DNA from: Macrocystis pyrifera
Lineage: Eukaryota > Sar > Phaeophyceae > Laminariales > Laminariaceae
Direction: 5' to 3'
Length of the DNA stretch: 64,000 bases
NCBI GenBank assembly: GCA_031763025.1
Contig: JASSKH010000027.1
Location: 10,634,055-10,698,054 of the forward strand
Shown here: one piece after another, positions 1,526 through 53,849 of the stretch
Layout of the letters: each line of letters begins with the position of its first letter
Position numbering within the stretch: the stretch's first letter is position 1
Made by a program: the position numbers and the translations under genes
Notes under the pieces: model-generated
Databases searched by the model: none
Told to the model about the DNA's origin: nothing
What the model saw: only the letters and a program-made list of their open reading frames with translations

Positions 1526-1530
<5 letters not shown>

Positions 1531-1569
<39 letters not shown>
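1531..1569 (-). repeat. Poly(C) tail of the LINE (poly-G on plus strand)
   Basis: An uninterrupted run of about 39 G on the plus strand abuts the 3' end of the LINE. The same junction recurs in other truncated copies, so it behaves as the element's tail. Confidence 0.7.
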
Positions 1570-4277
1570 CGTACTCATTTGTTGCTTGCCTTAGTCATTT
1601 GACCATTGACCACGCACCCCTTTCGAGACGGAGCACCGTTCCTACTCCTAATAGAGACACCTCCAACAATCAGGCGCTCATTACGTTGTTTCCATAAATT
1701 GCATAGAAACTTTTTGCTAATCTTATCCCCTTCCTGTTTGGCCTCCTGTGGCCACCATCTATCTCCTAGGATAGCGATCGTTTTCTCGCTGCTATTCATT
1801 GTATCAAACTCCTCCATGTCACATTCGTCTATTTTCCTCATCTCCTCTTCTAACACCTCCCGTTCCTCCTTGTATATTTCACATTCTCCTACTATGTGAG
1901 TTCTACTCTCTATTGCTTTGCCACACGGGCACATCTGTGCGTCTACTTCCTCCTCTTCCCGGCTACTGGTGTACCTCTTTCTTCTTTCTGGCAGGTCCAG
2001 GTCCCCTACACGAAAGCGCAGTTTCAGCGTTTTCGCGAAGTCCATTGGGCCATGCAAATACTTTTTCATTCCTATTCCTTCCCTCAATCCCCCGTATATC
2101 TCTAAGTTTTTTTCCGATTCCACCTTGTGTCTTAGCGCTAGCCTTTCCCTTCTTTCCATCCTTTCTTCTACTTCTGCCTTGTACCTCCCAAACTTCCCGC
2201 CGGACATCATCTCTAGTTGGTTTCCCCCTAGATCCTTCCATACTTTCTCAACTACGCCATCCCACCTTATTCCAGCTCGCCCTTTTGATACTTTCTCCCA
2301 TACAGCTCTATCAACTATGGCTGGCAACCTCTTTTTTGGCATGTTCCTTACGTTATATTGCCAGTTCAACTTTCTTATGTTTATATTTGTCTTGAGTGGG
2401 CGCATTCCCAGTTCTGCTCTTAATACTGTATTACTAGTCGTACTTGAGAATCTTAGGATTTTTTTAGCTGCTGTCATTTGTACTGTTTCCAACTGTTTTT
2501 TACGAGTTTCGCGTTCCGTTCCCATACTTCTCCTGCATATTCTAGCTTTGGTACTATCACATTCATCAAGATACATCTCTTAATCCTAGTGTCAAGGTTC
2601 TGGTCTGTTAGGATCTCATCCATCTTGCCTACTTGTGCCTTACCCTTTCCTATTCCTATTGCTTTTGCTATGTGTATCCCAAGAGCAGTCTTTTGAGATC
2701 TCTACGCCAAGGTATGTATACTGGTCTACGATCGGCAATTCATCTTCTCCCCACTTCCAACTGAAATTTACCGGGTTTACCTTATCTTCGTTGCAAACAA
2801 CTACTGCGCATTTCTTGACGTTCGCCGTCATCCTCCATTTCCTGGTGTGTTCTAGCGCCTTCTCTATTTGTTTCTGCAATCCTTCGGGTGTTTCTGATAT
2901 CCCCACGAAGTCATCCGCAAACATCAATCCCGAAACCGTATCTTCCCCTACCGTGACTCCCTGCCTTGCTCCCTCGACTGCTACTATCAGGTCGTTAATA
3001 TACATCTTGAATAAGTTAAGTGACAACGTACATCCCTGTGCAACACCTTGTAAAATATCAACATACTTCGATATTTCCCCGTCCAGCATCACAGCACTTC
3101 TCGCACACTCCGTCATCTTTTTCATCATTCTGCACATCTTTCCTCTCATTCCTATTTCCCACAGTTTTTTTTTCCACAATCTATTTCTCCATACTGTGTC
3201 GTAGGCTTTCTGCACATCTAGAAATAAACAGTGTGTTGTTTGTCCCACGTCTTTCCTACCTTGAATAATATTACCTAAGGTGTACACATGGTCTACGCAG
3301 CTACGGTTTGGCCTAAACCCTGCTTGTCCTTCGCTTATTTTGTCTTCCTTCTCCATCATCGTTCCCATTCTATCGTTCAAAATCTTACCAAATGTTTTGC
3401 CTACTGTGCTTAGTAGCGTTATCCCTCTATAGTTCCCGGGTCAGCCTTATCTCCTTTCTTGAATAAATGTACTACTACTCCTTCTCTCCACCTCCTAGGT
3501 GCGTACTCGTTTTGCCATATCCAGTTATACAACATGACCATCATGGTAAGCATTCCTTCTCCCCCGTACTTCATAAATTCATTCACTATTTGGTCTGCCC
3601 CTGCTGCCTTTCTATTCTCAAGTTTAGCTACACACTTCTTTACCTCTTCCCTTGTGAACTCTCTCTGCAACCCTCCCGAACCACTGTCTTCCCTTTCTGA
3701 TGTATCTGCGTTCGCCTCTGCCCACGCGTTGATTTCCTTCTCGAATTCTGCATCGAACGTTTCGTTGGTTGTGGGTGTTCCTAGCTTTTGGTAATGCTCT
3801 ACTAGTACCTCCCTTTTCCCCTTCGAACTACTAACCACTTTACCGTTCTGTGCTCTTAGAGTAGCTATTCCCGTGTCTGCCTCTCCTGCTTGTTTGCCAA
3901 GTATCCCTTTTATCCCTACCCACATCTGCTTCATCCCGCCCTCAAAGTCTTCATTTGTTTTATTTACTACGTCTTTCTATATCCCTTTCTTCTTCTTCTC
4001 TACCATCTATTTTACTTTCTTTCTAGCTATATCATACTCCTCTCACCCTGTCGAAGTTTTACTCGATGTATACCTTGCGTGTGCCTTTCTCCTTGCTCTT
4101 ATAGCCTCTTTCACTTGTTCATCCCACCATTTTACCGCTCTGTTGCATACTATCAACTTCTTCCCTATTACTTTACTTGCTGTGGTCTTGACCAACTGCT
4201 CCCATCCTTCTATTATCCTAGCTCCTGCATCATCCCTTTCTATATCGTTCCTTGTTGTACCTATTCTTTCCAACAGC
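1570..4277 (-). mobile_element. Non-LTR retrotransposon (LINE), 5'-truncated and frameshifted
   Basis: Read on the minus strand. It starts inside the region before the reverse transcriptase (WEQLVKTTASKVIGKK, WWDEQVKEAIRARRKAHA at 4040-4277), then RT (3934-2640) with KKGDKADPG, GQAGFRPNRSCVDH, FLDVQKAYDTVWR, QGVAQGCTLS and the catalytic FADD box (FADDFVGIS). A C-terminal domain (2576-1575) has a zinc-knuckle CPCGK...HIVGEC (C-x-C-x8-H-x4-C). Frame changes near 3440, 2685 and 2500 break the reading frame, so it is dead. The endonuclease is absent. The 3' end reads ACAAATGAGTACG and runs into about 40 C (plus strand G run 1531-1569). Clade not assigned. Confidence 0.9.
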
Positions 4278-4833
4278 TCGGGGGGGGGGGGGGGAAGGCG
4301 TACTCCCTTGTTGCTTGCCTTCGTCGTTTGGCCTTTGACCACGCATCTCTTTCGAGACGCAGCACCGTTCCTACTCCTAATAGAGACACATCCAACAGTA
4401 GGGCGCTCATCACGGTGTTTTCATAAATTACGCATGAACGTTTTGCTAATCTCACCCCCCTTTCGCCGCCTGTGGCCACCATCTATCTCCTAGGATAGCG
4501 ATCGTTTTCTCGCTGCCATCTAGTGTACCAAACTCCTCCATGTTACATTCGTCTACTTCCCACATCTTCTCTCCTAATACCTCCTGTTCCTCCTTGTACA
4601 TTTTACATTCTCCTACTATGTGAGTTCTACTCTCTATTGCTTTGCTACACGGGCACAACTGTGCACCTACTACTCCCTCTTCCTCCCCGCTACTGGTATA
4701 CTTTTTTTTTCTTCTTTCTGGGAGGTCCAGATCCCCCTACACGAAATCGCAGTTCCAGCCTTTTCGCGAAGTCCATTGGGCCGTGCAAATACGGTTTCGT
4801 TCCTATCCCTTCGCTTGATCCCCCGTATATCTC

Positions 4834-4942
4834 TATTACGGAGGACCATAGTTAACAGGACCTATGGTATGCATAAAAACCTATATATTTACCTATTTTT
4901 ACTAACAAAATTTGGTCCAATTTACTATGGTCCCCCGTATTA
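4834..4942. mobile_element. MITE family 1, copy 2 (inside the LINE copy)
   Basis: TATTACGGAGGACCATAGTT ... ATTTACTATGGTCCCCCGTA; interrupts the second LINE copy. Confidence 0.8.
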
Positions 4943-4950
4943 GCGCAAAG

Positions 4951-5014
4951 TAACTATTTTTTACTAACAATATTTGGTCCTATTTACTATGGTCTCCCGT
5001 AATAGCGCAAAGTA
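4951..5014. mobile_element. MITE family 1, copy 3 (right half)
   Basis: Right half plus flank GCGCAAAGTAAC, which also follows copy 2: a local tandem duplication of the end and its flank. Confidence 0.7.
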
Positions 5015-5038
5015 ACAAGGTGGAATCGGAGAAACACC

Positions 5039-5145
5039 TATTACGGGGTCCATAGTCAATGGACCAAATTTTGTTAGTAAAAATAGGTAAATATATAGGT
5101 TTTTATCTATACCATAGGTCCTATTAACTGTGGACCCCCGTAATA
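5039..5145. mobile_element. MITE family 1, copy 4 (opposite core orientation)
   Basis: TATTACGGGGTCCATAGTCA ... CTGTGGACCCCCGTAATAG; the core is inverted relative to copy 2. Confidence 0.8.
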
Positions 5146-5668
5146 GTCTTTCCCTTCTTTCCATCCTTTCTTCTACTTCTGCTGCCTTGTACTTCCCAAA
5201 AGTCTCTGCGGACATCGTCTCTTCTTGGTTTCCTCGTGTATCCGTCCATACTTTCTCGACTACGCTATCCCATGGGGGTACTCATCACGGCTTGTCCGAA
5301 AGGCCTCTGCGCAGGGCTGTGAACGCCGGCCGACCCACCGACTTGGTTGACGTACTGGTGCTGCCGCGCTCACTGTTTCGTGCCTGTCTGTTTTCGCCCC
5401 TCCACTTGCATGTTTGTTGCAGCCTGTTTTTTGTGACCGCAGGCAGGATTTCAAGGAATTGAGAGCTAACGTGAGAACTTTTATCGATCACACTCGGCTG
5501 GCGCTGTTTGTTTGGCTTCATTATGTGACAAAAAAAAATAAACACGGCCGTTGATGGCGATGGGGTTTTTTTATGCGCCATAAACCCGCAGCTTCAGATG
5601 TTGTCTCCCTCATGTACGGACTTTGTCTCCTGCATGAGGCCACATAAAAGCCGTAGTACGCGTGATAC

Positions 5669-5768
5669 TTTCCATAGTTAATAGGACCTATGGTATACGT
5701 AAAAACCTGTATATTTACCTATTTTTACTAACAAAATTTGGTCCTGTTTACTATGGTCCCCCATAATT
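5669..5768. mobile_element. MITE family 1, copy 5
   Basis: CCATAGTTAATAGGACCTAT ... TTTACTATGGTCCCCCATAA; the left terminal bases are decayed. Confidence 0.75.
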
Positions 5769-6080: not shown

Positions 6081-6322
6081 CAGGGCTCTTCACGGGTCAT
6101 GACCCGGCCGGCGGGTAGGTCAGAAGTTTTCGAAATCTCACGGGCCGGGTCGGCTCGGGTCAGGAGGTCCAAAAACTCTCACGGGTCGGATCGGGTCGCC
6201 ACCCGACCCGATTCTACCCGACCTCACCCGACTCGACCCGGCTCGGCCCTGCGCGACCTCACCCGACCCGACCCGACCCGATCTGGACGGCGAGGTTTTG
6301 ACCCGATCCGTAAACAGCCCTA
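6081..6322. mobile_element. hAT-like GACCCG element, short copy
   Basis: Starts CAGGGCTCTTCACGGGTCAT, interior of (GACCCG)n and its inverse, ends AACAGCCCTA. Flanks CTAAATAC and GTAAAAGC match at 5 of 8 positions, a possible decayed target duplication. Sits about 100 bp before an exon of the substrate-binding gene. Confidence 0.6.
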
Positions 6323-6593: not shown

Positions 6594-6973
6594 GTGCGAC
6601 CTCTCAACTGTCACAAGGGCACCGCTGCCGCCGCCGCCGCCTCTGCTGTGGTGCAGACCTTTCGCCACTAGAGAGGGTGTCGTCCGACCCCGTACGACCA
6701 ACCCTCTCCCTCTCCCTCTCCCTCCCCTTCTCCCTCCCCCCCCCCCCCCCCCCCCCCCGTCATTCGACTCTGTAATTCCATGCGCAAGAAAATCCGCCTC
6801 ACCAAGCGGTTCTTAGTAGGGTGCTGCTCACCCTCCATGCCACGACTCGCCAGACTCCCGCCGAACACCTCACGGTTTGTGGGCGCTTCGTACTTGCTGC
6901 GAGGGGCGATGTCTGCCTGGTCGGTGAAAACCTGACGTGCTCGATGGTCATCATACGACTACGGCCATGCATG

Positions 6974-7037
<64 letters not shown>

Positions 7038-7741
7038 CCTGGACCTGCCATCCCATTGCACACATTCCTCGTACAAAGGCCACGACGACGCCAAACGAAC
7101 AAAAAACAACAAAAAAATAACGTACAAAATTGACATTTTTTTGAATACGGGGGGCCATAGTAAATAGGACCAAATATTGTTATTAAAAATAGGTAAATAT
7201 ACAGCTTTTTACGTACACCATAGGTCCTATTAACTATGGACCCCCGTAATAGTATTTATTTCATTTTGCCGTCCGACATTGTGCGGGGCGTTCTTCATTC
7301 AGAATGAAAAAAAAAAGTGACACAGTTCGTCGGATACCACCATTCTCATCCGATCAACTCTCCTTCCCTGCGTATACTCAATCAAACACGTGCTATTACG
7401 GGGGGCCATACTAAGTAGGACCTACGGTACACACGAAAATCTATATATTTCCCCATTTTTGCTCACAATATTTGGTCTTATTTACTATGGTCCCCCGTAA
7501 TACCACCCTTTACCCAATTATTGTACCTGCTACGATGTCCTGATCAGGTTACAGATTGCTGTATATATTCGGCGACAGATTGGAAAAACAACCCTCCATC
7601 CCCCCCCCCCCCCCCCCCCCCCCCCCCTATATATGGGTTGGGTTTTCCCCCCCCCCCCTATATATGGGTTGGGTTGGCGTCGGTTGGCAACGACACTGTA
7701 AAACATGCCGCTCACTACGTGAGCTAGACATCCAGGGTACC

Positions 7742-7773
<32 letters not shown>

Positions 7774-8371
7774 GCGGTCGCCCACAGCTGGTTGTCTAGT
7801 TAGATCATTTGTGCGAAGTAAAGAACCTTTACTCTGCACAAGGGAATTGATCGTATCACGTAGTGTTCAAGGTACGGCACCCAAGAGGCAGTTACATAGT
7901 GCTCCCATTGCCGTCTCTGGAAGTGGCCACACCGGAAATTAAACTAACTCAATAAAGCTGTCATCCATAAGCAAGTCCGCCTCACAAGCGGTTCTTGGTT
8001 GGATGCAGCTCACCCTTCATGCGACTCGCCGGACACCTCACGGCGCTTCGCGCTTGGTGCAAGCAATGTCTTCCTGGTCGGTGAAAACCCGACATGCTCC
8101 GTCCCGGCATTGTAGGGATGCGAGGGTCTATGGTCATACGACTACGGCCATGCATGAGATCGAGTACATCTCCTATCGAGTACACCCCCCCCCCCCCCCA
8201 CCGCCCCCCCCCCCCCCGAAAAAAATAACACTTTTGTTAAGTAATATGTGGAAAAAAACGTCGTGAGCGACCCAAAGCTGGACGTGTGTCTATCAGGAGC
8301 AAGAATGGTGCTCCGTCTAGAAAAGGATGTGTGGTCAATGGCCTAGTGGCTAAGGAAAGCAACGCATTAGT

Positions 8372-8413
<42 letters not shown>

Positions 8414-8947
8414 CTCCGTCTCGAAAGGGATGCGTGGTCAAATGGCCAAATGACCAAGACAAGCAATAAATGACTACGCCCCTCCCCCACGGCGTGCTCC
8501 GTCCCGGCATTGTAGGGATGCGAGGGTCTATGGCCACACGACCACGGCCATGCGTGATAATGAGTACACCACCCCTCCCCTACCCGCCTCCCATCCCATG
8601 TCTATACGAAGGTGTACGCATTGGACGGAAATGCGTACTACGCCAGACCCGGCCCCCGCCTCCTTCAAGGTAGCGGTATCATCGCCCGCATCCTACACGG
8701 AGACGCCGTCGGGGACGCCATCGGCGAGGAAATTTCGCCGCGCGACTCGTGGACGACGATCTCAGGGCCCCCCATCCCCTCCCCGCGCACGCCTCCGCCT
8801 CCGCCTCCGCCTGTTCCTGATTCTCCTCCTGTTCTTCTTCCTCCTCCTCCTCCTCCTCCGATCTCGCAGCCGCTGCTGCCCGCGGAGCCTGCCGCTGCTG
8901 TAGCCGTTGTTGCTTCCCACCCGCCCCCCGAAATCACCACGACGTAG
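6430..8947 (+). CDS. BtuF/TroA-like substrate-binding domain protein, 3' part (last two exons)
   Basis: Two exons, 6430-6593 and 8612-8947, join in phase 0 and encode the C-terminal lobe of a class III (BtuF/TroA-type) substrate-binding fold, the family that binds cobalamin, ferric siderophores or metals. The first has LSWQELAAYDADVILIAPCG, matching the family's W-x-L-x-x-x-D-P-D-V-I-x-x-x-P-C-G segment. The second has LDGNAYYARPGPRL, matching the L-D-G-N-A-Y-F-x-R-P-G-P-R-L signature. Splice sites: acceptor tcttcag before 6430, donor cag/gtgcga at 6593/6594, acceptor gaag before 8612. After the fold comes a Pro-rich tail of about 60 residues ending at a TAG at 8945-8947. The exon at 6430 starts with 2 nt of a split codon, so earlier exons exist; none was recognised in 1-6429, so they are probably left of the window. 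The ligand cannot be told; cobalamin or iron binding is inference from the family. Confidence 0.75.
6786..7036 (+). mobile_element. Second poly(C)-tailed repeat family, copy 1
   Basis: Shares GCCTCACCAAGCGGTTCTT, CTGCCTGGTCGGTGAAAA and CATACGACTACGGCCATGCA with the copies at 7976, 8489, 12000 and 39130, then ends in about 60 C. No coding capacity seen; it resembles a short non-autonomous retroelement. Confidence 0.6.
7146..7252. mobile_element. MITE family 1, copy 6
   Basis: TACGGGGGGCCATAGTAAAT ... TAACTATGGACCCCCGTAAT; intron of the substrate-binding gene. Confidence 0.8.
7393..7502. mobile_element. MITE family 1, copy 7
   Basis: CTATTACGGGGGGCCATACT ... TACTATGGTCCCCCGTAATA; same intron as copy 6. 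Confidence 0.8.
7976..8217 (+). mobile_element. Second poly(C)-tailed family, copy 2 (fullest)
   Basis: About 210 bp ending GATCGAGTACATCTCCTATC then GAGTACA and a C run with two interruptions. Confidence 0.6.
8288..8412 (+). mobile_element. LINE 3'-end fragment with poly(C) tail
   Basis: About 87 bp of the LINE terminal region (gtgtctatcagg ... gcaacgcattagtac), followed by about 38 C. Confidence 0.7.
8413..8488 (+). mobile_element. LINE 3'-end fragment stacked on the previous tail
   Basis: Begins GCTCCGTCTCGAAAGG right after the C run, ends AAATGACTACGCCCCTCCCCC. Confidence 0.7.
8489..8590 (+). mobile_element. Second poly(C)-tailed family, truncated copy 3
   Basis: Starts at GTGCTCCGTCCCGGCATTGT directly after the C tail of a LINE fragment and ends ATGAGTACACCACCCCTCCCC. 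Lies just before the acceptor of the substrate-binding gene's last exon. Confidence 0.55.
8612..8947 (+). CDS. Terminal exon of BtuF/TroA-like gene
   Basis: 336 nt, 111 codons plus stop. Opens with VYALDGNAYYARPGPRL, then a helix (GSGIIARILHGD) and a proline/serine-rich tail ending EITTT. The tail is low complexity and is not part of the known domain. Confidence 0.72.
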   Translation: MYALDGNAYYARPGPRLLQGSGIIARILHGDAVGDAIGEEISPRDSWTTISGPPIPSPRTPPPPPPPVPDSPPVLLPPPPPPPISQPLLPAEPAAAVAVVASHPPPEITTT

Positions 8948-9331: not shown

Positions 9332-9335
<4 letters not shown>

Positions 9336-9373
<38 letters not shown>

Positions 9374-9437
9374 CGTACTCATTTGTTGCTTGCCTTAGTC
9401 ATTTGACCATTGACCACGCATCCCTTTCGAGAGGGAA
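9336..9437 (-). mobile_element. LINE 3'-end fragment between two poly-G runs
   Basis: Plus-strand poly-G (about 9336-9373), then GCGTACTCATTTGTTGCTTG and about 60 bp of LINE end, then the next G run. Confidence 0.75.
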
Positions 9438-11364: not shown

Positions 11365-11830
11365 GCACACGTCGGGTAGATACCTACAGATAGGTCATCT
11401 ACAGATAGATCATCTACAGATAGATCATCTACGGATAAGTCATCTGCAGATAGATCATCTACAGATAGCTCATCTACAGATAGATCATCTACAGATAGCT
11501 CATCTACAGATAGCTCATCTACGGATAGGTCATCTACAGATAGGTCATATACGGATAGGTCATCTACAGATAGATAATCTAAATCATCCAGATTCTTACC
11601 TGCCGCGGTGAGATGTTGTGTACGATCTGTCTGCCTACATAGGTACTGTAGCATCGTGCGAGTCCAACCCGAGAAAAATGTTTTTACTCTGTAGATCGTG
11701 CAGATTACACGACTCCCACCCGGCAGCGTGAGCTAGATCATACAGATCAAACAGATCATACAGATCAGGAACATGTCTGCCCTGAAAGATCTAGGTCATG
11801 AGGGGGGGATCGGTGATCTGCCCGATCATA
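11365..11830 (+). repeat. Dispersed GATCATACAGATC family, copy 1
   Basis: The 15-bp array plus a downstream unit (GTGAGCTAGATCATACAGAT ... CTGCCCTGAAAGATCTAGGT) that recurs without the expansion at 28035-28320 and 40240-40520. Confidence 0.5.
11377..11580 (+). repeat. 15-bp tandem array CATCTACAGATAGnT
   Basis: About 13-14 units of 15 bp (CATCTACAGATAGATCATCT...). Open in frame on both strands because 15 is a multiple of 3; not taken as coding. Confidence 0.85.
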
Positions 11831-11999
11831 TATACCGCTCTGGCCGGAATTATAAGGAACGCTTATACATTAATATGAATAACAAGTGGTCCTCATATTT
11901 CCGCCCAGGGTAGTGTATGTCTGGGTTGGCGCGAGAGATGGAGAGAGAGCGAAGGGAAGGGGGGAGGGGGATGGGCGTGGTGGGGTTTTATTCATGTCC

Positions 12000-12148
12000 C
12001 TCGCATCCCTCCACAATGCCCGCACGGAGGAGCACATCGTCGGATTTTCACCGACCAGGCCAGACATTGCGCCTTTTACCAAGCGCGGAGCGCCTGCCGC
12101 GAGGTGTTAGGCGAGTCGCGTGAAGGATGAGCTGCATCCTTATATATC
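12000..12148 (-). mobile_element. Second poly(C)-tailed family, inverted copy 4
   Basis: Inverse of the family: CCCTCGCATCCCTCCACAAT ... TTTTCACCGACCAGGCCAGA ... GCGAGTCGCGTGAAGGATGA. Confidence 0.5.
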
Positions 12149-12149
12149 A

Positions 12150-13170
12150 AACGACCAGTATGGATGACAGCGTGGATGGAGAGGGGAGGGCAAGGGAGGC
12201 TATGCTCGGGCTGGTACACGTTACGGAGGTTTGTTATCATTGATAGGTTTATGGGTTCGCTCGAGAGGAATACGGAAAGAGAGGTTAACGGAAAGCAAGG
12301 GGAGTGGGTGGGGGGCGAAGAGGGGAGCAGAGAGGGGAGGGGAGGTCGTGTGACGTAGGAAAACACTCCCACAGAAGTACTGGTTTCCCACCAGCTACCG
12401 AGCGGCCCATCTGCTCGAGGGAAAGACCTAGATGCAGTATCTCCGACAGCAGCAGAGCAAGCAGTGAATCCCCCCCCCTTGCCCGAGCAGCAGTACGCTT
12501 CATTAGTCTCGTGCGCCGCAAGCGGGCGAGCAAAGTGTTGGATGCGGTTTTTTTTATGACTGTGACGTACCAGCAGGTGTCATATGAAAATGATGCCGCT
12601 CCGCGGGGAAACAGAAGGGCCGCTCCGCCTTCGTATTAATGTCTGAACGCTTCTATTAATAATTGTTACGGCCAGAGGGGTACCGGGTAGGAAAACGTGA
12701 GCACTCGTAGAGTATGGGAGCTAGTGCGCGAAGAGCGGCGAACAGTAACGCCTACCTACGTAATACTTAATACGTGTAGAGCTCGAGAGGCAAGGGTATT
12801 GATAATTGAATAGTTAACGATGCGTGAAAGACCTCGAGAGGCAAGAACACTATTATTGAATATTATCATATTGATATTAATATTTGAATGGCCGTAACGC
12901 GGCGGAAAGGTTACTGTTGATACATGTAGATACAATCGCGGCTGAAAAAGCGCACACACAAACAAAAAAAAAACAGGACGAACCACGATGAACCGATACA
13001 CCTTGTTTTCGATCGGCTGCGGGATGTAAAACAGCCACGCAGAGATACGCGAATAACACGCGCGCGTTTACGCAGGGAGGAGCTCAACGTCAGGATCGAA
13101 GCGAAAGATCATGCAGAACCCCCCAGAGTAGGTCTTACAAGCTATTAAGCTCGAGTCTTTAGTGGTGTTT
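12150..13170. other. Gene-free stretch
   Basis: Mostly unique-looking sequence. A 60-codon open stretch on the minus strand at 12350-12533 looks codon-like but matches nothing I know and lacks convincing splice sites. Confidence 0.4.
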
Positions 13171-15918: not shown

Positions 15919-16028
15919 CTATTATGGGGGACCATAGTTAATAGGACCTACGGTATACATAAACACCTACATATTTACCTATTTTTACTAACAATATATG
16001 GTCCTATTTACTATGGTCCCCCGTAATA
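15919..16028. mobile_element. MITE family 1, copy 8
   Basis: CTATTATGGGGGACCATAGT ... ACTATGGTCCCCCGTAATAA. Confidence 0.8.
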
Positions 16029-17415: not shown

Positions 17416-17551
17416 CTTACTACATCGAGTACATCTCTCCTATCGAGTACCCCCCCCCCCCCCCCCCCCGCCCCGCCCCCCCCCCCCCCCCGCCCCCCCC
17501 CGCCCCCCCCCCCCGCCCCCCCCCCCCCCCCGCGCCCCCCCCCGCCCCGCG

Positions 17552-17589
<38 letters not shown>

Positions 17590-17655
17590 CCCCCCCCGCC
17601 CCCCCCCCCCCCCCCGCCCCCCCCCCCCCCGCCCGCCCCCCCGCCCCCCCCCCGC
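17416..17655 (+). repeat. Tail fragment and long C-rich tract
   Basis: TACATCGAGTACATCTCTCC and ATCGAGTACC (tail of the second family) lead into about 200 bp of C with scattered G, possibly several decayed tails joined. Confidence 0.5.
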
Positions 17656-20099: not shown

Positions 20100-20320
20100 T
20101 TGCAGTTGTTGTTGTTAGTTGTATTCGCAGCTGAAGTTGAAGCTGCAGTTGAAGTTGAATTCGCAGTTGAAGTTGAAGCTGCAGTTGAAGTTGTATTCGC
20201 AGTTGAAGTTGAATCTGCAGTTGAAGTTGAAGCTGCAGTTGTAGTTCTATTCGCAGTTAAAGTTGAAGCTGCAGTTGTAGTTGTTTTCGCAGTCGTAGAT
20301 GTAGCTGCAGCTGAAGTTGA
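20100..20320 (+). repeat. 18-bp minisatellite GAAGTTGAAGCTGCAGTT
   Basis: About 11 imperfect units alternating GAAGTTGAAGCTGCAGTT and GAAGTTGnATTCGCAGTT. Open on both strands (Val/Glu/Ala or Thr/Ser/Ala repeats). No gene context, so called a repeat. Confidence 0.75.
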
Positions 20321-20639
20321 AGATCGGACTCTCTCTTGTCGAGAAAACCTGCAGGGACACTCCCTCCCTCCCCGGCCTCGCCATCGCGCCAAGACGACGA
20401 CGACGATGAATACGCTGTGGACCGACCGACCGACAGATCGACCGGGCCGATGTTGGTGACCTTTAATTATCTTGCTATCCGGCGCTTGAGCTTTTTCCCC
20501 CCCCGCCGCACGTGCGCGGAGACGACGCTCGCCAAACAGAAAGGCCCTCCTAGCAAGTAGAGGGAGGACGCATCGCGGACTGTTTCTTGCATAGCGCAAT
20601 CATCGCAATAACCGCCCCGCGTTCCCCCATTCCATATCC

Positions 20640-35300: not shown

Positions 35301-38300
35301 GAAAAGCCAGAATATCGATCAGAAAAGAGAAACACACGCATAAATTATATAATGTTGCGAAACGAATTGCCGTAAACCTTTGTGCTCGAGGGCCACGCCA
35401 CGCCAGGCCGCGCCGACCGCCGGCGGAAGCCGACGGAAGCATTTTGTTTCATATAGATCCCAATAAGTGGGACAAGAAAAAAAAAAGGCAAACGGGTTGC
35501 CACCGGGCACCCAAACGACGGAAGAGCAGTGCAGCCACCAGCAGACAGCTGTGAATATGACTGCTCTGGAGATAAACCTAAGAAACGCTTGGTCTTCATA
35601 ATGGTGTCTAAACGATCCTTAATTTTTCCGCCCAGAGTACTGTTTTACGACTTTGGGCGGAAAAGTAAGGACCGTAATGTACTGAAAAAATGAATACACC
35701 CTGTTTTACGACTTTGGGCGGAAATGTAAGGACCGTGATGTACTGAAATGAATACACCAACAGGTATTACATTTTCCGATCGAGTGGTACGTACGTACGT
35801 ACTCCCTCTCGATTTGAATCGTACTCGTATTCGAACTGAGCGCTTCGCCCGTGTTCGAGCAACGAATCAGGAACGGCAACGGCAACCACCAGTGCTTAGT
35901 ATTGCTATCCGCTGCATTCTGTTACGTAAACTAATCCGGCGGGCTGCGAAATCGCAACGTTTTCTCCTGTCCACGACGCCAGTGATGCGCGGTATGCAAA
36001 CCAAACGACAGCAGCAGATCGACCGACTGCCTGACCGACGTGAAACATGCCAACATCGTAAGGAGACCTTAACGTTGGTGCACCCCCCCCCCCTGCTCCG
36101 TCTCGGTTGAGGTGCATGGTCAATGTTCATATGACTAAGGTGAGCAACAAATGAGCACGCCCCCCCCCCCCCCTCCCAACGCTATTCCTACGGACGAAAT
36201 CATACGCATGCGTGCGGGACGTACTGTAAGCCGAACGCACGACAGCTTTCGTGCCGCCCGCCCTACACACCAGCACAGGCACAGGTAGCAGCACGACCAG
36301 GACAAATACAACATACCAGACACAGGCCGAACCTGACGTACGTATAAATGGTGGTCACCCACATGCGGCGTTTACGCGAGTAACTTCACGGGGAGGTTTG
36401 TACGTGGCTTGAAAAATCACAGCACACCACGGGTAAAATACTTGATACCAGGTACGTGATAAGTGTACCTTTCTGCGGACCTCTTTACATAGTCCTACCT
36501 CGTCCGTTCCCCCGTGTACCATACTGATCTCCCTCAGGCAACAAGTAACAAGCGCGTGCTGTCAAAACTTCGGCCTCCACAACGCTGACAGCAGCAGTAC
36601 TTCGACAAAGACATACAGCAAATGTATACCTGGCCCGCAGAGCAACGTAGCCGTCGTACCGTGATGCCACCCATTCCAACTGGCACCTGTAACCAACTCA
36701 AACGACTTTATCAATACTGCACTAGAGTGCCATGTATTATTCATAGGACCAAGAGTATTATACCGAATATTCTGCAGGCTATCGTACAACAGCTTCATTC
36801 AACAACGTACATATTTATATTCTAGTGTAACAGAGGAAAGACAACAACAAAAAGAGGGCGAGTGCAGCAATGCGAGAGGCGCGCGGGGCGTGCGTGCATT
36901 CGCGCCCCGTTACCACTGCTGCTGCTGCAGCTGCCGTTGGGGAAATACGTCACTGCCACCTTCCTTCCGCATCTACTACAACTATATCTCACATAAACCA
37001 AACGACAGCAGTACCGTACACGAGTCCTAACCATCCAGACATCGGCACGGATCGGAGGGCTGACTGTTGCGGCACTGCTGTTACCGACCCAACGGCTCCA
37101 ACTCGAAGTCTATACCTTGAGCTTGAAATGCGGAAGGTGCTTGTGGGCGTCTGCGATGAAGTCCTCGTAGAACCACCAAGCCTGCTCCAGCTGCACAGCA
37201 ACAACAGCAACAGGAAGCAACATCAGAAACGGTGCAGGGAAGTTTACGTTTTTTCATTGTTAACAATAGCACCACTACACTCGGTACATCTTCTAATAGT
37301 AGGGAAGGATGGAGAAACAAACAAAAAGCATGGGGGGGGGGGAGGCGGGGGGGAACACGTCACCCTACACGTCTCGTCCTTTCACGTACAAACTTGTCCG
37401 TCAAACACCAAAATACAGCGTTCCTGGAATAAACGTGATGTGTACCCGTGCATAGTACATACCACACTATATGTACGAGTACCATGAAGTCTGTCGTATA
37501 ATTAGCGAGAAACTTTACAGTAACGGAAAAGCTTTGACGTACGTACGCCCTTGACGCAACCAGTCCCAAGCGTGGTGAACGTATGCATGCGTCCTCGTGC
37601 TTCGTGGGGCTGTCGGAGTATCAAACCAGGAACAGCTTTCTCTAAAAATCTCCATCCTACTGCTTGGAAGCACCCGTCACAACCACCACCACCAACTACT
37701 GACCACTGCTGTTGTAGGCCATATAAAGTAAGAATATTCTAGTCTATCACTACTGCTGCATATGCATCGCAGATAATGATATTACGGGGCACCATAGTTA
37801 ACAGGACCAAATATTGTTAGTAAAACTACGTAAATGTATAGTTTTTTTTTATATATACCATAGGTCCTATTAACTATGGACCCCCGCAATAGCAGCTTTT
37901 GGCTGTTTTACTAGTATTAATAGTCACTGGTACAGCAGTATCGATTAGGTTGCCAGGTATAGATGATACAGGCTCGTACTGCTGCTGTACCAGGTACAGC
38001 AGCAACGCATCCCATCGCAGAGTTTCCTGCTATACGGGTACCGATATTCTCTACCGGTAACCGCTCTGACCCGGTGCACCGAAACCACCATCCACGTAAA
38101 AACAACTATTACGGGGGACCATAACAAATAGGACCAAATATTGTTGGTAATAATAGGTAAATATATAACGTTTTTGTGTGTACCGTAGGTCCTATTTACT
38201 ATGGTCTCCCGTTTATATACTACTGCTGTACCAGTACCTGGTAATCTGTAACGCGGTCTTATATGAGTAGGCATGATACCCATAGGGGAAAAAATAGCAC

Positions 38301-41300
38301 CAGGTGGTCAAAAGTATACGGGATTCTGGTACCACGCCAATATGTACTATTAATAATTGGTTTAAACATGGCGAGCACGAATACAGGACAAGGGAGACAA
38401 CAACACACTCCCATATACCGCTGATGCCCCAGCGCATCACGTGGTGAAACACAACAATCGTACGACTATAATAGTGGCGGCCACAGATTGAAAAGATAGT
38501 ACCAGTAGAAGGTACCAGGTAGTCAAAAGTATACCTGGTACGGTAAACTGGGACCGCGCCATCATGTACTAACCACAGATTTCTTATCTCTCTAGGATTT
38601 GAAGAATCGGCACGGACACTGGTTGTGCTGGATGTCGACGGGTAGAAAGAACGGTTTAATGTGAAGAAAACAACAACAACAATTGGTTATAAAACATGGT
38701 AAACACGAATGCAGCACGGGGGAGAGAACTAAACACTCCCGCACACCGCTGATGCCCCAAGCCATCACGTGGTGCAATACAACAATCGTATTGTAGTGGC
38801 GGCCACAGATAGCAACATATAACCTCGCGCCTCCCCATGGGGCTACAGACGCGTTTTTTCTCGCGTACTGATGTAAATAGCCCATGGTCCTGTCCAGACT
38901 GGCACTGCGTGCGAACAAGACAAGCCGACTGGCTCTGTAGACTTTTATTTTTATTTTTTTATTTTTTAGCGGGTCAAAGCTACCACATCACTTGGGACCT
39001 TTGTGGCTCTACGAAAGTAGGGGCTCCATACTCCGGCGGATTGGTAAAAATAAGCTCACCACACTTCCACGTTCGCGATTTCGTGTCTGTAGACTTGCTT
39101 CTATCATCAAAAGTACGAAATGGAAAATAAAACTTGGTGTGAGCAATGTCTGCCTGGTCGGTGAAAATCCAGCGTGCTTTGTGCCGGCATTGTAGTGATA
39201 CGAGGGTCAATGGTCATACGACTATAGCAGTACGGCAATTCATGACATCGAGTACACCCCTCCGCACCTCCATTGCCCTTGGCTCTGAAGTTGCGAGCTA
39301 CATGTACGTACGATCGTACCAGTAGAATCACAAAATATGTCGTTACAGGTATAAGGCACAGCAGTGCAGTCAGTATAAGAGTTACTCATGACCTTTCGGT
39401 CGCTTGGCTCCTGGATAGAGCGAACCATCTATGGTTGTCCCCCCTGAACCAAAAACAAAACTAATCAACAGGCGAACTCGGAATCTCGCTCAGCTCTGAA
39501 TGTGTGTGATTTGCGACTCCTTTCGATAGTAATTCGGCTATACATGATGGGGCACGCGAAACAAAAGCAACGATACTGGACAACGGAGCTATATAAGCAG
39601 TGTACCCTCGGGTGGTTTGGCAATATCACATGTATCTGAGACTCGAAGAGCACGTAAGAGCGCGGTTGACACGTCGTGCCCCTAAAAATATTTTCAGCGG
39701 TATATACATGGGTCATATCTGGTGCGCGCGGGGGCCGGGATACCAGTTGGAAAATTCGAAACTGTCCAACTTTATGCGGCTGCACGAAAAGCACTCCACG
39801 ACCTGGTACTCTGCGAAGAGCACAACGTTTTCTTGTCGATACTGATCCGCATGATTGATGCCGTTTTTTTTTCGTTGTAGATTTTACCTTGCCACGACCC
39901 ACCACGAACTTGCTACAATTACGATCCTCAACGATCTTCCAGCAGTATAAATAGAAGGATCAACCCGCTGAAAGTTCAGAGTAACCATGCAACCTTCGCA
40001 CGGATCGTATATACGGACGGTCAGACACAGGCACAATTTTTCCAGAACATCATGGAGACCAAACTACACTTTACATTTCACGCAGGTTGTGTTAGGCTGT
40101 TCGGACATCTGAAGACAGCGTCATCGCGTCATCAGAGAGCCCAACGCTGCACGCAGCTCTAGACAATACCAGGTATAAAATTACTGTGAAAAAAACAAAA
40201 AGTCATCTCGCCTCGGACAGATCATGATCTACATTCAGCTAGTATTATAAATATTATTAGTAGATCATCCACTACTGCTGCCGTAGTTCCTCACCTACAG
40301 CTGTGAAAGGTTGTGCTCAATCAGAATACGAGTAGATAGTACATGATCCGACACAGGACACATGTGCGAGACCAGGTAGGTTATACGGGTCCCACCCAAC
40401 AAACATTAGCTCAGGTAGATCATACCAGATTGGGAATAGATCCATCTGCCTTGAAAAATCTAGAAAAATTAGTGAAAAAGTGGAAATGATCTGTAGATCA
40501 TCCGTCCGAGGTGTACTTCGAGTTGGGGTATTGCCGCGTTCGGGGCGCCGACCAGCCCCTGGTCACAGCTCAGACCCGGAAACTCAAGTACCAGCCCTTC
40601 GGAGTAACGTGGAAATCCCAATTTGCAAGAAAACCCCGTACGCGTATAAAACCGCACGATGAAAAACTGGTAATACACTGGTAATACACGCATGGCGACT
40701 TTCGGGGTTGACGCCGACAACGGTGGATATGCATCGAAGTGCTTACCGTGTACCAAGGTACCTGGTACTGGTAATGCCCAAGATAGCACAGCGCCCCTGG
40801 GACGAATTTCAGAGACGATTTTCTCCATGATACGGAGGTGAGACAGAAACCAAAATGGTGGCATGTAAAATATCTTGTCGAGATCCATGTTTCCATAGAC
40901 ACTACAACGTCGCACGGCATTTACACTCTGCCGGTTGTGGAGAAAATCAGCTTCAAAAATCGCCGAGGGTGCTTGTTATGGTGCGCGTTACCAGGTACCA
41001 GGTACCGGTATGTGTTTTAGTAAATAATACGGTATAGAACAACCATATGCTTTACGCACGGACCGGCATATACCCGGCGTGCACTTTCTGTGTGCACCTT
41101 TTCTTCTTCACAGGCAATACAGCAGAAGCGAACCAAGTTGATAGCAACCGAGGCAATTCCACATACAACAGAGCTTCAGCATGCACGAGGTATGTACGTA
41201 TATATGCGAAAACAGGAGCACATGAAGTGCACCAGCAGCGTTAGCGCCATGGTTTGGATAGACACTGAACGTACCAGGTACACATCTAGCGCCAACATAT

Positions 41301-45867: not shown

Positions 45868-48800
45868 CTGCATGCAGAAAAAAACATCACGCCACGACAG
45901 CGGGGGGGGGGGGGGGGGGGGGGGGGGGGGCGGGGGGCGATTGATTAAAAAAAACCCAAGAAACTCCTAACCTGTTCTTCAGTAATCGGTAACTCCATGA
46001 ATGAGTCTCCAACGATGCCTATCGTATCCGAAGGGCTTCAATGCGATGCAGAGCCATCACGGAGGACCATAGTAAATAGGACCAGATATTGTTAGTAAAA
46101 ATAGGTAAATATATACCAGTAGGTAATATGTATAGCACAGGTCCTATTAACTATGGTCCCCCGTAATACTAGTCCAGCTGAAGCGTGTCAATGCGACCCC
46201 GACTCTACCAGATCTGGGAAGCTTGCGGCTCCGAGCGCCCGGGCCTTCGCCCGTGCCGGTACTTGGAGCCCAGTGCACGAGCGACACTGCCTACTGTGGC
46301 GTACTTCGGCTTACACCGCATCGAATCCACCCCTTTCGAGGCTGCCGGCACCCTGGAATGCCTTGCGCCCTCATCAAGCACCTTGCTTGTGACAACATGT
46401 CGTTCCTACGTACAGGCAACAAGTGTGTTGCGTTGTGCGTTTGTCATACTTACGATTTCTCTGCGCTGCAAAATCACGATAAACCGGTTTATAACCGCAC
46501 CCGCGATTCACCACTTTGAAATTTAGTGGGACAACTTTCGCAGCCTCTAAGGGGTTCAGGGTTGTTAATTCCGACAGCCTGAACCAGAACGACGAGGAGG
46601 CGTGCCGCGAACCACTAACACGGCCCATCAGGCGGCTTTTACCTCTGCGACGGCGGCCTTAAACGTTTCCGTGTCGGCGTAGAACGCGCTCTTGCTTTTC
46701 CGCGCCTCCTCCCCTACACATCTCGCCAACCCCTCGCTAGCAGCTTCCGTGAAGACGACTCGTCGCAGACAAGCATCTTCTTCCACCCATTGCGGCACCT
46801 GGGACGAATGCACACATTATGAGAATAAACAACACATGTCGCCAAGTCGGGGCGTGGGCATGCGCTAGATAGCATACCCTTGCGCTGACTCATCCGAGGA
46901 TTGTTTTACGCTGGGTGCGCGCGCGGCCCTAGCTCTCCAGGTAGTTGCTATTGTTCGGATGGTCTGTTGCCGTCGTGCTCGTCCAATCTCTACAACAACG
47001 CCGCCTACACATAAATCTTAACACGGCCTGCCCCCGCCAGAACCGCACGCGCTTATGGGGACAGAAAGATTGGAATTAGTGTGAACTGACTTCTGCGGTA
47101 GTTGAGGGTTAGCTGCTGTGCGCACCATAATACCCGCGGCGGCTTCTTCAGCATATTCTGAAGGAGTCGGCAGAGCGACACCATACAGGCTAGGTTCGTG
47201 GAGTGACACAAAGGGGGCGAGGTCGCACACACCGCAATCCTTCTATGCTAGACGTTGGACAACCTCATGTCGAACGAGAACCGCTCAGGCGGGATTGGGC
47301 GGCACGCCCGCTTCCTACTTCCGCCTTCTCTTGCGCAAAATAAAATCTACGCCCAAGCCACGTTCTACGCCTGATTTTGTTTTCGCGCTTGCTTACCCTC
47401 ATGTCCTGCGGCATGTCGTGGGGGATGACCGGCTTGATGTCGATGATCTGCACAGAAAAAAAACGGCGCAAGAAAAGACAATAGGGGAATTCCAAGGAAT
47501 AACGCCAGCGCACGCTAGATTGACCCAACAACATATGGTACAAACAACAGATCGGCACATACATCCAAGAACCCGCCCCTCCCCGAGCGTGTGGGGTCTC
47601 GTCAGAAAGTAGACCTCAAACGTCACATGGCACCCGCAGAGCGTGATTACACTGTTTGAGGATCGGGCCGACTAAAAAGGGGGCTGTTGTAGTCTGCCGA
47701 CTAGGTCCGTAGCCCGACAACGTCCGCCGTGCACAGACCGCGCGTACGAGTCGAACAACCAGCTCGCGGAAGAACATTTTCAGGTTTTGGAGGTCGTCCG
47801 CGATTTAGCGGACGAGACCGAGGTCCTCACCGGCGTGCCGTTCACCAGATCAACGCCGCTGACTGTAATGCTGTTGGTCTTGAGATTCACTCCGTCCAGC
47901 TAGAGGGTTCAACGAAAGAGATAGTGGTGGACGATCAATGCCGAACGGTGGGGGGGCGAGGGGGGGGGGGGGGGGGGTACTCACTTGTTGCTTGCCTTAA
48001 TCATTTAACCACTGGCCACGCACCCCTTTCGAGAAACAGCACCGTTCCTACTCCTAATAGAGACACTGCCAACAGTTGGGGGGGGGGGGGGGGGGGGACG
48101 CGTGGAAACGAGGACGTAAGAAAAAACGCGTGTGTACATAGGCGTGCCTCTAGCCGGTGTGGCGGTGATGTTCCGAAACCGAATATAAATACCGTCCGCG
48201 GCGTTTTGTTTCAGGAGGCGCAACCGAAGCATCGTCGCAGCAGCTACCAGCAGGAAACCGCCAGGGTGTATTGTCATGGCTGATAAAAACTACAACCGCT
48301 TGCGGTTAACTTCCGTCGCAAGGGAAAACAAAAGGACGCCACCAGCCCGACGTTTCGTACATCTAAACTCACCTTGACCATGGTCAGCCCTAAGGGGTTC
48401 GGTCGATGTGGGCTCCGAGTTCCCAGGACGCCGACCTTCTTGCCCAAGCGAGGTGGACTGGGCACAAAAAACGGACGACGTGGCGGGAGAGGCTGAGTAA
48501 AGGAGGCTACAGCGCGGGTGATTGGGACTGATCACGCTTGCACTGCCCAGTAGCGTAGCAGAATTGTGCGATAACCAGCTCACCATGCGTAGTACAATTG
48601 AACGATCGAATACGTTGACGCGAGGATTTTCTTCAGTAGTTATTACCACACGCGATCAAGGCCGACATCCATGAACAAATGTACTGCAACCCCGACACGC
48701 CGCCAGCCTTGCGTGCGAGACTGATCGGTACACCCCGCAAGTACGCAGGGAGGCATGCTGAAAGGCAGAGAGGCAAGCAGAGGCTACCTCGATGAACTCA

Positions 48801-51800
48801 CCACACTTTCGTGAGAAACGTTTGCCGCAACTTATGCCTTGGCTGTTGATACTCCCTCGCTCCGCCCCCCCACCTCTCGGCCCTCTCTTTCTCCCCCGTG
48901 CCCGGTGCCCCCTCCTCCCTCGTTCTCCGCCCTTCTAACACCACGCTCTCTCCCTCGGCATCCCCGCCCGACAGAATTTGCCTCGGCCGGCCTCTCTTCT
49001 ACGACACCGTTAACCGTGGCGTTCGTGTTGTCGTGGAAGACGAACAGGAGCCACACGTGCGAGAAATCGTCCAGACCGATCAGCGCGGGGTACCCAACGA
49101 TCGAGGAGTCCAAGGTCACCTGAGCAAAGCAAGGCATGGCGTGGGGTAATCGTGAGAAGGACGAGTAGGAGAAGAGACGACGGGGGATACACATTTGTTG
49201 CTTGCCTTAGTCATTTAACCATTGACCACGCATCTACTGTAGTTCGAAACGGAGCACCGTTCCTACTCTTAATAGAGACACCTCCAACATTTGGGTCATC
49301 ATTACGTTGTTTCCATATATCGCATAGTTTTTTTTTGCTGATCTTATCCCCTTCCTGTTTGGTCGCCTGTGGCCATCATCTATCTCCTAGGATAGCGATC
49401 GTTTTCTCGCTGCTATCTAGTGTATCAACTCCTCCTTGGGAGGAGGGGGGGGGGAATCACGAGCGAAGAGTGTAGGGGCACCTGCTGACTAGCCGTGGGC
49501 TCTCCGACTTCCCGGCCGTGACTCAAAACGATGGCTGGCCCCTGCCAGAGGCGTAGACTCGCGTTAAACCCTTTACAAGTGCAACCACGTTTTTTTTGGA
49601 AATTTACGTGGAACTAGCGAGGGAGACTTATGTTAAGTAGCAGAAGAGTTAAATAACCGCATCTGGCAGAGGCTCACGACTGATATCTACACCGGCTCCA
49701 AGCGACAAAAACGATAACGATGGTATAATGAACTGGCAGATGAAAAACGGGGGCTGCACCGCACCGGGGTGGTGGCTGTTGCGGTGCCCTCGCGATTGTT
49801 ACTTCGAGTGGCGCGTCCAGGGCCGCGTCGGGAATGGTTTCACCTTCCCCCGCGATAAAGGTGTGATGCTCCCCTGCCGAGGCGTTCCTCTCCGATCTCG
49901 GAACGGTGTGCTGCCGGCGTCGCAGCAAGGGGTGCACGGAAGACAATCGGGGCGCGGTTACGCTGAGATATGGAGGTAGGGAAGGGAGCTCGTACAAGTA
50001 GTATTCCGGGCACAGGCGTGCAAGTAAATTACCAGTGGCGTACCAGCACTTCTCATCATACATACCAACATACGGCTCGTCTCGCCGTTCCTATCACAGA
50101 AGAAAATAAAAAAAAAACGTTTAATGGGCGACGATCGGCAGAAGGGCAATGGATACCGTGTGCCACGTGTATGATGACGTTGTTCAGTTGGCGTCAAGTG
50201 TTTTGCACCACGCGCCCCGCGGCGCCTCTTGCCCCCCCTCGACCGAAAGCCTTAGTCGAGAACATGCCATCTTAGTTTACGCACAACATTCAACCTCAGG
50301 CTCCGTTTGCCGTCCGTATCGGGACATTAACACTGACTCAAACTTGTATGATACAAATCACAAAAAAGCAAGCAGACACACCCGCGGGTGTACGCATGCG
50401 CCCCACGAATAGCGCTCACCTAATGGTGCCCACCGCGGTGAAATGGTAGCCATCCGTCTCCTCCACCTCCTAGGCACCACGCACGCATGTGTGGCGCGCG
50501 GTAGGGGTATAAGGGGCGATGAAGACGCGGAGGGGGTGTCATGTGTAGTACGAAATCAGCGATAGCAACATGATACACGCCGCCGGCCGTTGGCCGAGCT
50601 GAGACGTCCACAGACGAGCGCAGCAGGTCAGCCCATAATCGGCGCGAGCGCGCAGGGGGGTAGGGGTCGCAATCGCTCGCTCGCGCAAAACTAAACAAAA
50701 TTCGATGGCATTGAGGCACAAGGTAACCTTCAATGGGACGGCCACCCTGGTCTTGACAGCGATGCGATACCGCCCGTGTCGTCACCCGAAGCTTCCCCTG
50801 CAGGCCACCCGCGTTATACTTCATCTTAGGACAATGTGCGCGTGGCAAGGACAGGCTATCACCTGCTTCTCAGCCCGGAGTCGCCTCTCGGCCTCGGTGC
50901 GCCCTCTTCGCTCCTCGGCCCGCTGCCTCCCCTCGGACGCCACCTGTATGCCCAGTTGGGAAATTTTTGCAGCTTTAGCACCCAGCTCTTCGTCCTGCGA
51001 AGGGGGTGATCAGCGGGGGCAACACCATGAGTCATTCGATCGCCCTTGGTGAGGGCGGGGCTCCTCCCAGGAAATTCCAAAACGTGTTCATGCCCGATAG
51101 TAGGCTCGGTCGGCGATCGGTGGAAAATTCGGCTTCAGCCAGCTCGAAAGGGGGTCCCTAGTTGCGCCGTTGGTATGAGATACCTGGTACTGGTATCGAT
51201 CATATTCGCGGTCGCTCGTAAAAATGTTATTAATAGATGTTGGGTGGTCTTGCCTAGACACTTTCATCGCAGTTCACGCGCGGACGGACGCGACGAAAAG
51301 TAAACGTTTCGTTCTAAAATTTCTCTACAATAGTACAGTAGTTAACTTAATATACACAATACGAGAAATAAAATACCTATTAAATAGTACCGGTACTCTT
51401 ACCTATATATTGTCTGCAGACTAGTAAAATAGCATAACAGCAAGCGAAGCGCCTGTTCGACCAGGAGCCGGCGACCCATGTACCGGCATGTTGCTCTGGG
51501 AGTTGTCGGAACAAAGTGTCGCGTAGTACCGGTATCGACGTACTCGTACCTCGTACGGGTACTCCTACCTTATACTGACTGCTGACAAGCAAAACACCTG
51601 TTTGACCAGCAGCCGGCGATCCATGTTGCCTCGTCGTCGCGAAAAGGGCTGGGGTAGTGCTGGGCCCGTAGACGTGCACCGCATCACGACACGCCATCAT
51701 AGAACTACTTACTTAGATCTCGATCTCTGAGCGTGCTCGGTTGGTACATCCCTGGCCTCTCAGAGCTCCCACGTGGGAATCGCCTCCTTTCATTACTTGC

Positions 51801-53473: not shown

Positions 53474-53849
53474 ATGCGTGTAGAGATAAAGTGGCTTTTC
53501 CTCTCCGGGTGCCAGAAGAAACTCTTTTTTTGTTGGACCCTGTTTTGTGCAGTCTACAGCAATCAGTCCATCCTTGAGTCAGCGATTGTGTATGTGCCAC
53601 TCAACCACAGCTTGAGTGAGTCACATACGACGCCTATCCTCCCCGTGTTGCAGCTTTGCAATGTCGCTGCAGATGGTTTCGAACGTTGCAGCCACAGTGT
53701 TATTGACGCCCTTACGCTTCTGTGGAAGGCATGCTCAAGCCCTGCATTGGGTACTCTACGAGCCGTCGGACAACAACCTCGGCCTTCGTTTCCCCCCTAC
53801 GAAGCTGATATGTCACGTCGCGTGGTCATAGTTACCGGAGCCAACACAG
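53474..53849 (+). CDS. SDR exon 1
   Basis: Open from ATG 53474 and ending VIVTGANT plus G at the donor acag/gtaaga. The N-terminal 100 residues are not conserved in any way I recognise; only the end is diagnostic. A palindromic MITE lies just upstream. Confidence 0.65.

Follow-up and report, generated by a model that had tools for sequence, protein, structure and literature searches.

A LINE family with poly(C) on both sides of its copies, and SINE-like partners, probably inserting into C/G homopolymer tracts

We describe a eukaryotic LINE family that, together with SINE-like passengers, probably inserts into homopolymeric C/G tracts. In the window (the whole 64-kb stretch of DNA analyzed here), the same homopolymer, C, was found on both sides of all eight LINE copies, with the 5′ edge of one of them (c1) being defined by the tract. 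In a preliminary description, the C-run following the element had been taken for a poly(C) tail that came either from an unusual template or from terminal addition by the reverse transcriptase (RT). The copies do end in C, as was claimed there, but the C tracts on their 5′ side had been left out and are a new observation. As a tail added at ordinary sites does not predict such tracts, we prefer to see in the C-run the insertion target and in the C tail of the RNA a copy of it; most simply, the tail would be part of the landing site. The observations behind this reading are the C tracts at both ends, their orientation, the sharp 3′ ends, the 5′ truncation and the shared 3′ module, and they come from eight LINE copies, all truncated, in one 64-kb window of one allele.

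The family is a non-LTR retrotransposon (LINE), as already proposed, based on the Pfam and structure matches of its RT and on truncated copies with a common 3′ end. The RT of c1 matched Pfam RVT_1 at 4.5e−30 when the peptide was read across one frameshift, and at 1.8e−24 in the stop-free stretch that carries the domain (2643..3380, minus strand), while its best solved-structure matches were R2 (2e−18), followed by LINE-1 ORF2p (8.6e−13). Upstream of the RT lies a Trp-rich stretch that we take to resemble the linker of APE-type LINEs, and downstream what is presumably a CCHC-like knuckle, a motif recognized by eye in the translations. The knuckle belongs to the stop-free C-terminal stretch (1578..2576, minus strand), for which no Pfam family was found up to E 0.5, a PDB sequence search gave a best match of only E 0.61, and the AlphaFold model had a mean pLDDT of 42.5. 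The Pfam scan of c1 covered these two stop-free pieces; only RVT_1 passed the cut-off and no endonuclease domain was found in the two pieces, hence c1 was taken as 5′-truncated and the tract specificity is not traceable to a protein. The reading frame ends with a TGA within the last 8 nt of c1 (TGAGTACG), leaving almost no 3′ UTR. An RT scan of viral contigs found no relative. An 18-mer of the element 3′ end had one match in viral contigs (with no C-run after it) and one in genome contigs (a Ruminococcus MAG), several matches being expected by chance in 257 Gb according to our own arithmetic.

Copies were collected by blastn with the 2.7-kb copy c1 as query and the 64-kb window as subject (E up to 0.01), which returned 10 pieces that were resolved into eight LINE copies (c1–c8), dispersed across the window and having a common 3′ end and differing 5′ ends. 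In all eight the 3′ end is GAGTACG or a variant of it, followed by C's. Copy c1, previously placed at 1570–4277, spans 1570..4279 (minus strand) and is 5′-truncated and frameshifted; its junction stood as described, GAGTACG being followed by a C40 tract (1530..1569, minus). Three of the blastn pieces make up c2 (4299..5272, minus), which is split by MITE-like DNA at about 4833–5146, and its tail after GAGTACG, a CCTT+C15 tract (4280..4298, minus), is at the same time the 5′ flank of c1. The other minus-strand copies are c3 (49187..49438), with C5 after GTGTAT (49182..49186, minus); c4 (47978..48074), with C18 after GAGTA (47960..47977, minus); and c5 (9374..9436), with a 3′ module 97% identical to that of c1 and C40 after GAGTACG (9334..9373, minus). 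On the plus strand, c6 (8218..8372, local alignment from 8227) has after TTAGTA a C40 tract (8373..8412, plus) that is also the 5′ flank of c7 (8413..8478, 66 nt), which in turn ends in GACTACG and the tail CCCCTCCCCC (C4-T-C5; 8479..8488, plus) directly before a SINE-like copy; the last one, c8 (36094..36159), has C14 after GAGCACG (36160..36173, plus). Tails are thus short (c3) or interrupted (c2, c7) in three of the eight. Every junction of GAGTACG or a variant with C's named in the preliminary description was recovered by sequence reading, homopolymer listing and inspection of the flanks of all copies.

The link between the end motif and C-runs exceeds chance. With up to one mismatch, GAGTACGCCCC occurs 10 times in the window (0.98 expected; 10 reached in 0/100 shuffles), five of these being LINE ends, three SINE-like ends (8178, 17445, 39250) and two neither (3498, 18294). 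The strict 3′-end motif immediately precedes 7/66 C-runs of at least 8 in the window, compared with 0/73 A-runs, 0/73 T-runs, and 1/66 G-runs of that length.

On the 5′ side, a C tract ends 0–9 nt upstream of the start in 8/8 copies, and all eight tracts are C on the sense strand, none G. For the seven copies with a start defined by homology to c1, a C-run of at least 5 ends 0–9 nt upstream in 7/7, while a C-run of this size ending within 10 nt upstream is found at 1.95% of window positions (both strands), the threshold (at least 5, within 10 nt) having been picked after the data were seen. These tracts are C5 for c2 (5274..5278, minus; gap of 1 nt), C10 for c3 (49445..49454, minus, next to TCCTCC; 6 nt), C20 for c4 (48078..48097, minus; 3 nt), C13 preceded by C96 for c5 (C96-TT-C13, 9438..9548, minus; 1 nt), C14 for c6 (within C15-ACCG-C14, 8185..8217, plus, the tail of SINE-like copy s1; 9 nt), the above-mentioned C40 for c7 (0 nt), and C11 for c8 (36083..36093, plus; 0 nt). 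The C15 tract adjoins c1, whose coding-like sequence continues up to it; as no second copy reaches so far upstream, this edge is defined by the tract itself and not by homology. In the control, 16 intervals of a MITE-like family (some of them fragments) had C5 or G5 in 2/32 outer flanks.

The eight tracts differ in what they can say about sites that existed before insertion. The 5′ tract of c1, c6, and c7 is the tail of another copy, and the C5 of c2 follows GATGAGTA, an element-like end, upstream of which the DNA matches nothing else in the window; since each follows the C tail of another element, c1, c6, c7, and apparently c2 are not independent evidence for pre-existing tracts. The 30-nt 5′ flank of c2 contains 10/30 C, a value reached by 25% of windows, and is not unusually C-rich. 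No element end can be recognized before the 5′ tract of c3, c4, c5, and c8, and the joint chance for these four is about 1.4e−7 (our own multiplication, with the threshold chosen post hoc).

Six SINE-like copies (s1–s6), joined by similarity to s1, were found in the window. Copy s1 (7967..8184, plus, 5′ end approximate) has its 3′ module in common with the LINE and a 5′ flank that is not C-rich, while s2 (6770..6974, plus, 5′ end approximate) ends in CATGCATGA and not in GAGTAC, with C23 upstream (6736–6758, plus) and C62 downstream (6975–7036, plus). In s3 (11998..12170, minus) the end of the 3′ module is missing and the 5′ flank is C-rich, with interruptions; s4 (39133..39256, plus) has an A-rich, not C-rich, 5′ flank and the tail CCCCTCC; s5 (8495..8568, plus, 5′ end at 8490–8495 by scoring) ends in GAGTACA and continues C-rich; and s6 is a 27-nt remnant of the 3′ end (17424..17450, plus), directly followed by a 204-nt C-rich array with scattered G's (17450–17653). 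The 3′ ends of s1, s4, s5, and s6 read GAGTAC(A) and then C. The first three of these align with the eight LINE 3′ modules (s2, s3, and s6 stand outside that alignment), s1 matching the 3′ ends of c5 and c1 at E 2.5e−4 and 6.8e−4, and judging from this alignment the 3′ ends of s1, s4, and s5 can be called homologous to the LINE 3′ end, as in a LINE-paired SINE. As to a tRNA-like head, ARAGORN and an Rfam gathering search gave nothing in the window. The number of C's in the 30-nt 5′ flanks is 22 for s2, 18 for s3, 13 for s5, and 20 for s6, compared with 7 for s1 and 3 for s4, i.e., four of the six copies have a C-rich 5′ flank, with s5 being marginal (7.7% of windows reach 13 C). The LINE clearly obeys the target rule; for the SINE-like copies the rule is looser, or masked by decay.

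In one alternative, the element has a C tail of its own, whether encoded, attached to the RNA or attached by the RT, and inserts at unspecific sites. This accommodates the sharpness of the 3′ GAGTACG|C junction as well as s1 and s4, which have C tails yet ordinary 5′ flanks, but it is at odds with the C tract found just upstream of all seven homology-fixed LINE copies and abutting c1, set against the 1.95% background. Tailing at unspecific sites was dismissed as the main explanation because of these tracts, and we consider the alternative unlikely.

The copies also differ in where they start: c2 at LINE position 2016, c3 at 2462, c4 at 2612, and c6 at 2566, with c5 (2648), c7 (2646), and c8 (2645) starting within 3 nt of each other (9436 on the minus strand, 8413 and 36094, respectively; LINE 2645–2648) and c1 reaching further upstream. 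The start of s5 (8490–8495) is at or near the base homologous to these three starts, and the shared start of c5, c7, c8, and s5 suggests a discrete unit of ~65 nt and not random truncation. Such a short class could be produced by RNAs with C's at both ends, generated when transcription of a truncated copy inside a C tract includes its flanks, in which case the 5′ C's would derive from the RNA and not from the target. The three starts at 2645–2648 and that of s5, which coincides with the homologous base or is at most some 5 nt away, are in line with this, and Zorro3, according to the accessible part of its description, has poly(A) at the 5′ end as well (PMC1965478). However, the four other starts (c2, c3, c4, c6) and the more upstream one of c1 would each need a C-flanked parent of their own, and we regard this origin of the 5′ C's as rather improbable.

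C tracts are abundant in the window, with 47 C/G runs of at least 10; base composition predicts 0.13, and 50 first-order Markov simulations gave 0.3 on average and 2 at most. Fifteen of the 47 are within 12 nt of an element edge, 8 further ones prolong such tracts (9453 and seven runs in 17476–17653), and by our count 24 are located elsewhere, so that unoccupied tracts are common. Occupied ones may hold more than one element: s1-C-c6-C-c7-C-s5 form an array within about 600 bp, head to tail and in one direction, and c2-C-c1 are likewise arranged head to tail in the same direction. The 3′ modules inside the arrays are only 77% (c6/c7) and 86% (c1/c2) identical, which means that the members came from different source copies and rules out tandem duplication of one unit. 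Serial landing in one C tract would produce these arrays. Template jumping, in which the RT leaves one RNA for the C tail of another and creates head-to-tail concatemers, would also give the single direction seen in both; an origin as concatemers only is dismissed on account of c3, c4, c5, and c8, with no recognizable element end before their upstream C tract, and we give this mechanism little credence. A length of exactly 40 is shared by four C/G runs (1530, 8373, 9334, 13767), the others of at least 10 spanning 10 to 96, so that assembled run lengths are not to be trusted and a sequencing or assembly length effect is possible for these four. That the C tracts are largely an artefact of assembly or sequencing, as the four equal runs might suggest, is very hard to believe since run lengths vary (8 to 96), several runs are interrupted by other bases and the junctions are consistent, only the lengths being doubtful.

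Evidence for an RNA structure of the 3′ module is weak. A hand-drawn stem-loop had 91.6% of cells paired vs. 89.6% in shuffles (reached by 16/500), and pairing fell to 29–54% when the model was slid by 1–3 columns. Covariation was weak, with 2 pairs changed on both sides (53/500 shuffles) and a score reached in 30/500. RNAalifold on the same 11 stretches predicted 8 pairs, one of them with a two-sided change, and single-sequence folds of the 3′ modules had z-scores of −1.75 to +1.02.

Besides the LINE and its partners, the window contains a MITE-like family (about 110 bp, termini similar to ATTACGGGGG...CCCCCGTAAT), present as 16 merged blastn intervals in both orientations (963–1071, 4833–5146, 5672–5762, 7144–7252, 7393–7499, 15919–16025, 25719–25822, 27584–27691, 28394–28537, 37780–37892, 38106–38209, 46059–46168, and 59387–59496 among them). 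Repeats of the GACCCGACCCG type are located at 6160–6300, 56713–56851, and 57607–57724, a 15-bp tandem repeat (about 13 copies) at 11384–11581, and an 18-bp tandem repeat (about 11 copies) at 20127–20322. Possible exons of a short-chain dehydrogenase were noticed far apart on the plus strand, at about 53810–53850 and 61175–61285; one candidate ORF has VIVTGANTG and no Pfam match, the other matches PF00106 at E 0.025, below the cut-off of that family. Such distant exon candidates would suggest long introns.

For insertion into C/G tracts, we propose the following scheme. Within a C/G tract, the endonuclease would nick the G strand and so free a poly-G 3′ end, this end would pair with the 3′-terminal C's of the element RNA, and target-primed reverse transcription would begin at the GAGTACG|C junction, with the remainder of the C tract staying on the 5′ side of the new copy. 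The C's of the RNA would probably stem from transcription read-through into the donor's own downstream tract. As they would be copied from that tract, tail and target would be one sequence, and every new copy would bring along a landing site for the next one. Terminal C addition by the RT is unnecessary for this scheme, yet possible, and the priming poly-G strand could fold into a G-quadruplex. Counting against the scheme are c6 and c3, where 9 and 6 nt separate the tract from the start of the copy, c2 with a tract of only C5, and s1 and s4, i.e., two of the six SINE-like copies, which have no C-rich 5′ flank. The proposal in its full form, with poly(C)/poly(G) tracts as a dedicated LINE-SINE landing site, the RNA C tail as a read-through copy of the donor's landing site, each insertion spreading the target of the next one, and poly-G as the primer of the RT on an RNA whose C tail is independent of polyadenylation, is tentative, and our confidence in it falls a little short of even.

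The closest system in behavior appears to be Zorro3 of Candida albicans (L1 clade), a LINE that, as far as the accessible parts of the reports go, has a homopolymer on both sides, as target and possibly as tail. Its empty sites were short poly(A) tracts, and poly(A) tracts of at least 10 exceed expectation ~15-fold in its genome (PMC3510499, PMC1965478, in the portions available). In the available portion of PMC1965478, the authors suggest the corresponding scheme for poly(A), in which the target offers a poly-T flap and the RNA poly(A) anneals to it, and PMC3510499, within the same limits, states that target, duplication and tail are not always separable in identical homopolymers. The three are indistinguishable in such homopolymers, and this holds for the present family too. 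The Zorro3 homopolymer is poly(A), which polyadenylation supplies, whereas poly(C) needs another source; furthermore, for Zorro3 most characterized new insertions are full length, empty sites are known and an assay exists (going by the accessible text), compared with truncated copies in one window here. The likeness concerns behavior, namely a homopolymer on both sides, and not clade placement. Simple repeats are also the targets of R1-clade LINEs specific for microsatellites or telomeres (Waldo, Mino, Kibi; TRAS, SART), where the known repeated units have two or more bases, in contrast to the single C of the tracts described here. More generally, targeting of repetitive sequences, microsatellites and telomeric repeats among them, is described for several LINE clades (PMC4640811, available part).

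Among algae, the Ectocarpus RTE-X LINEs resemble our family in having an abundant non-autonomous partner (RTEX-N1) that shares their 3′ end, although, unlike here, the accessible part of that report mentions no C tail or C target (PMC12477816). Green-algal LINEs likewise have 3′ simple repeats other than poly(A) and SINE partners; the repeats given in the accessible part of the source are (CATA)n, (CA)n, (CAA)n, (TAA)n, (ATT)n and others, with no (C)n (PMC3747384). No LINE inserting in poly(C) was found among the matches listed in the open-access literature, where 'poly(C)' with its brackets is not a usable term. If true, poly(C) targeting would set apart RT recognition and primer pairing as two functions of a LINE tail, would show how read-through of a target can maintain a tail, could help to explain the excess of C/G homopolymers in some genomes, and would present a LINE machinery directed at a single simple sequence. 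Homopolymer targeting as such is already known from Zorro3 and its poly(A) tracts, and the poly(C) version would be what is new.
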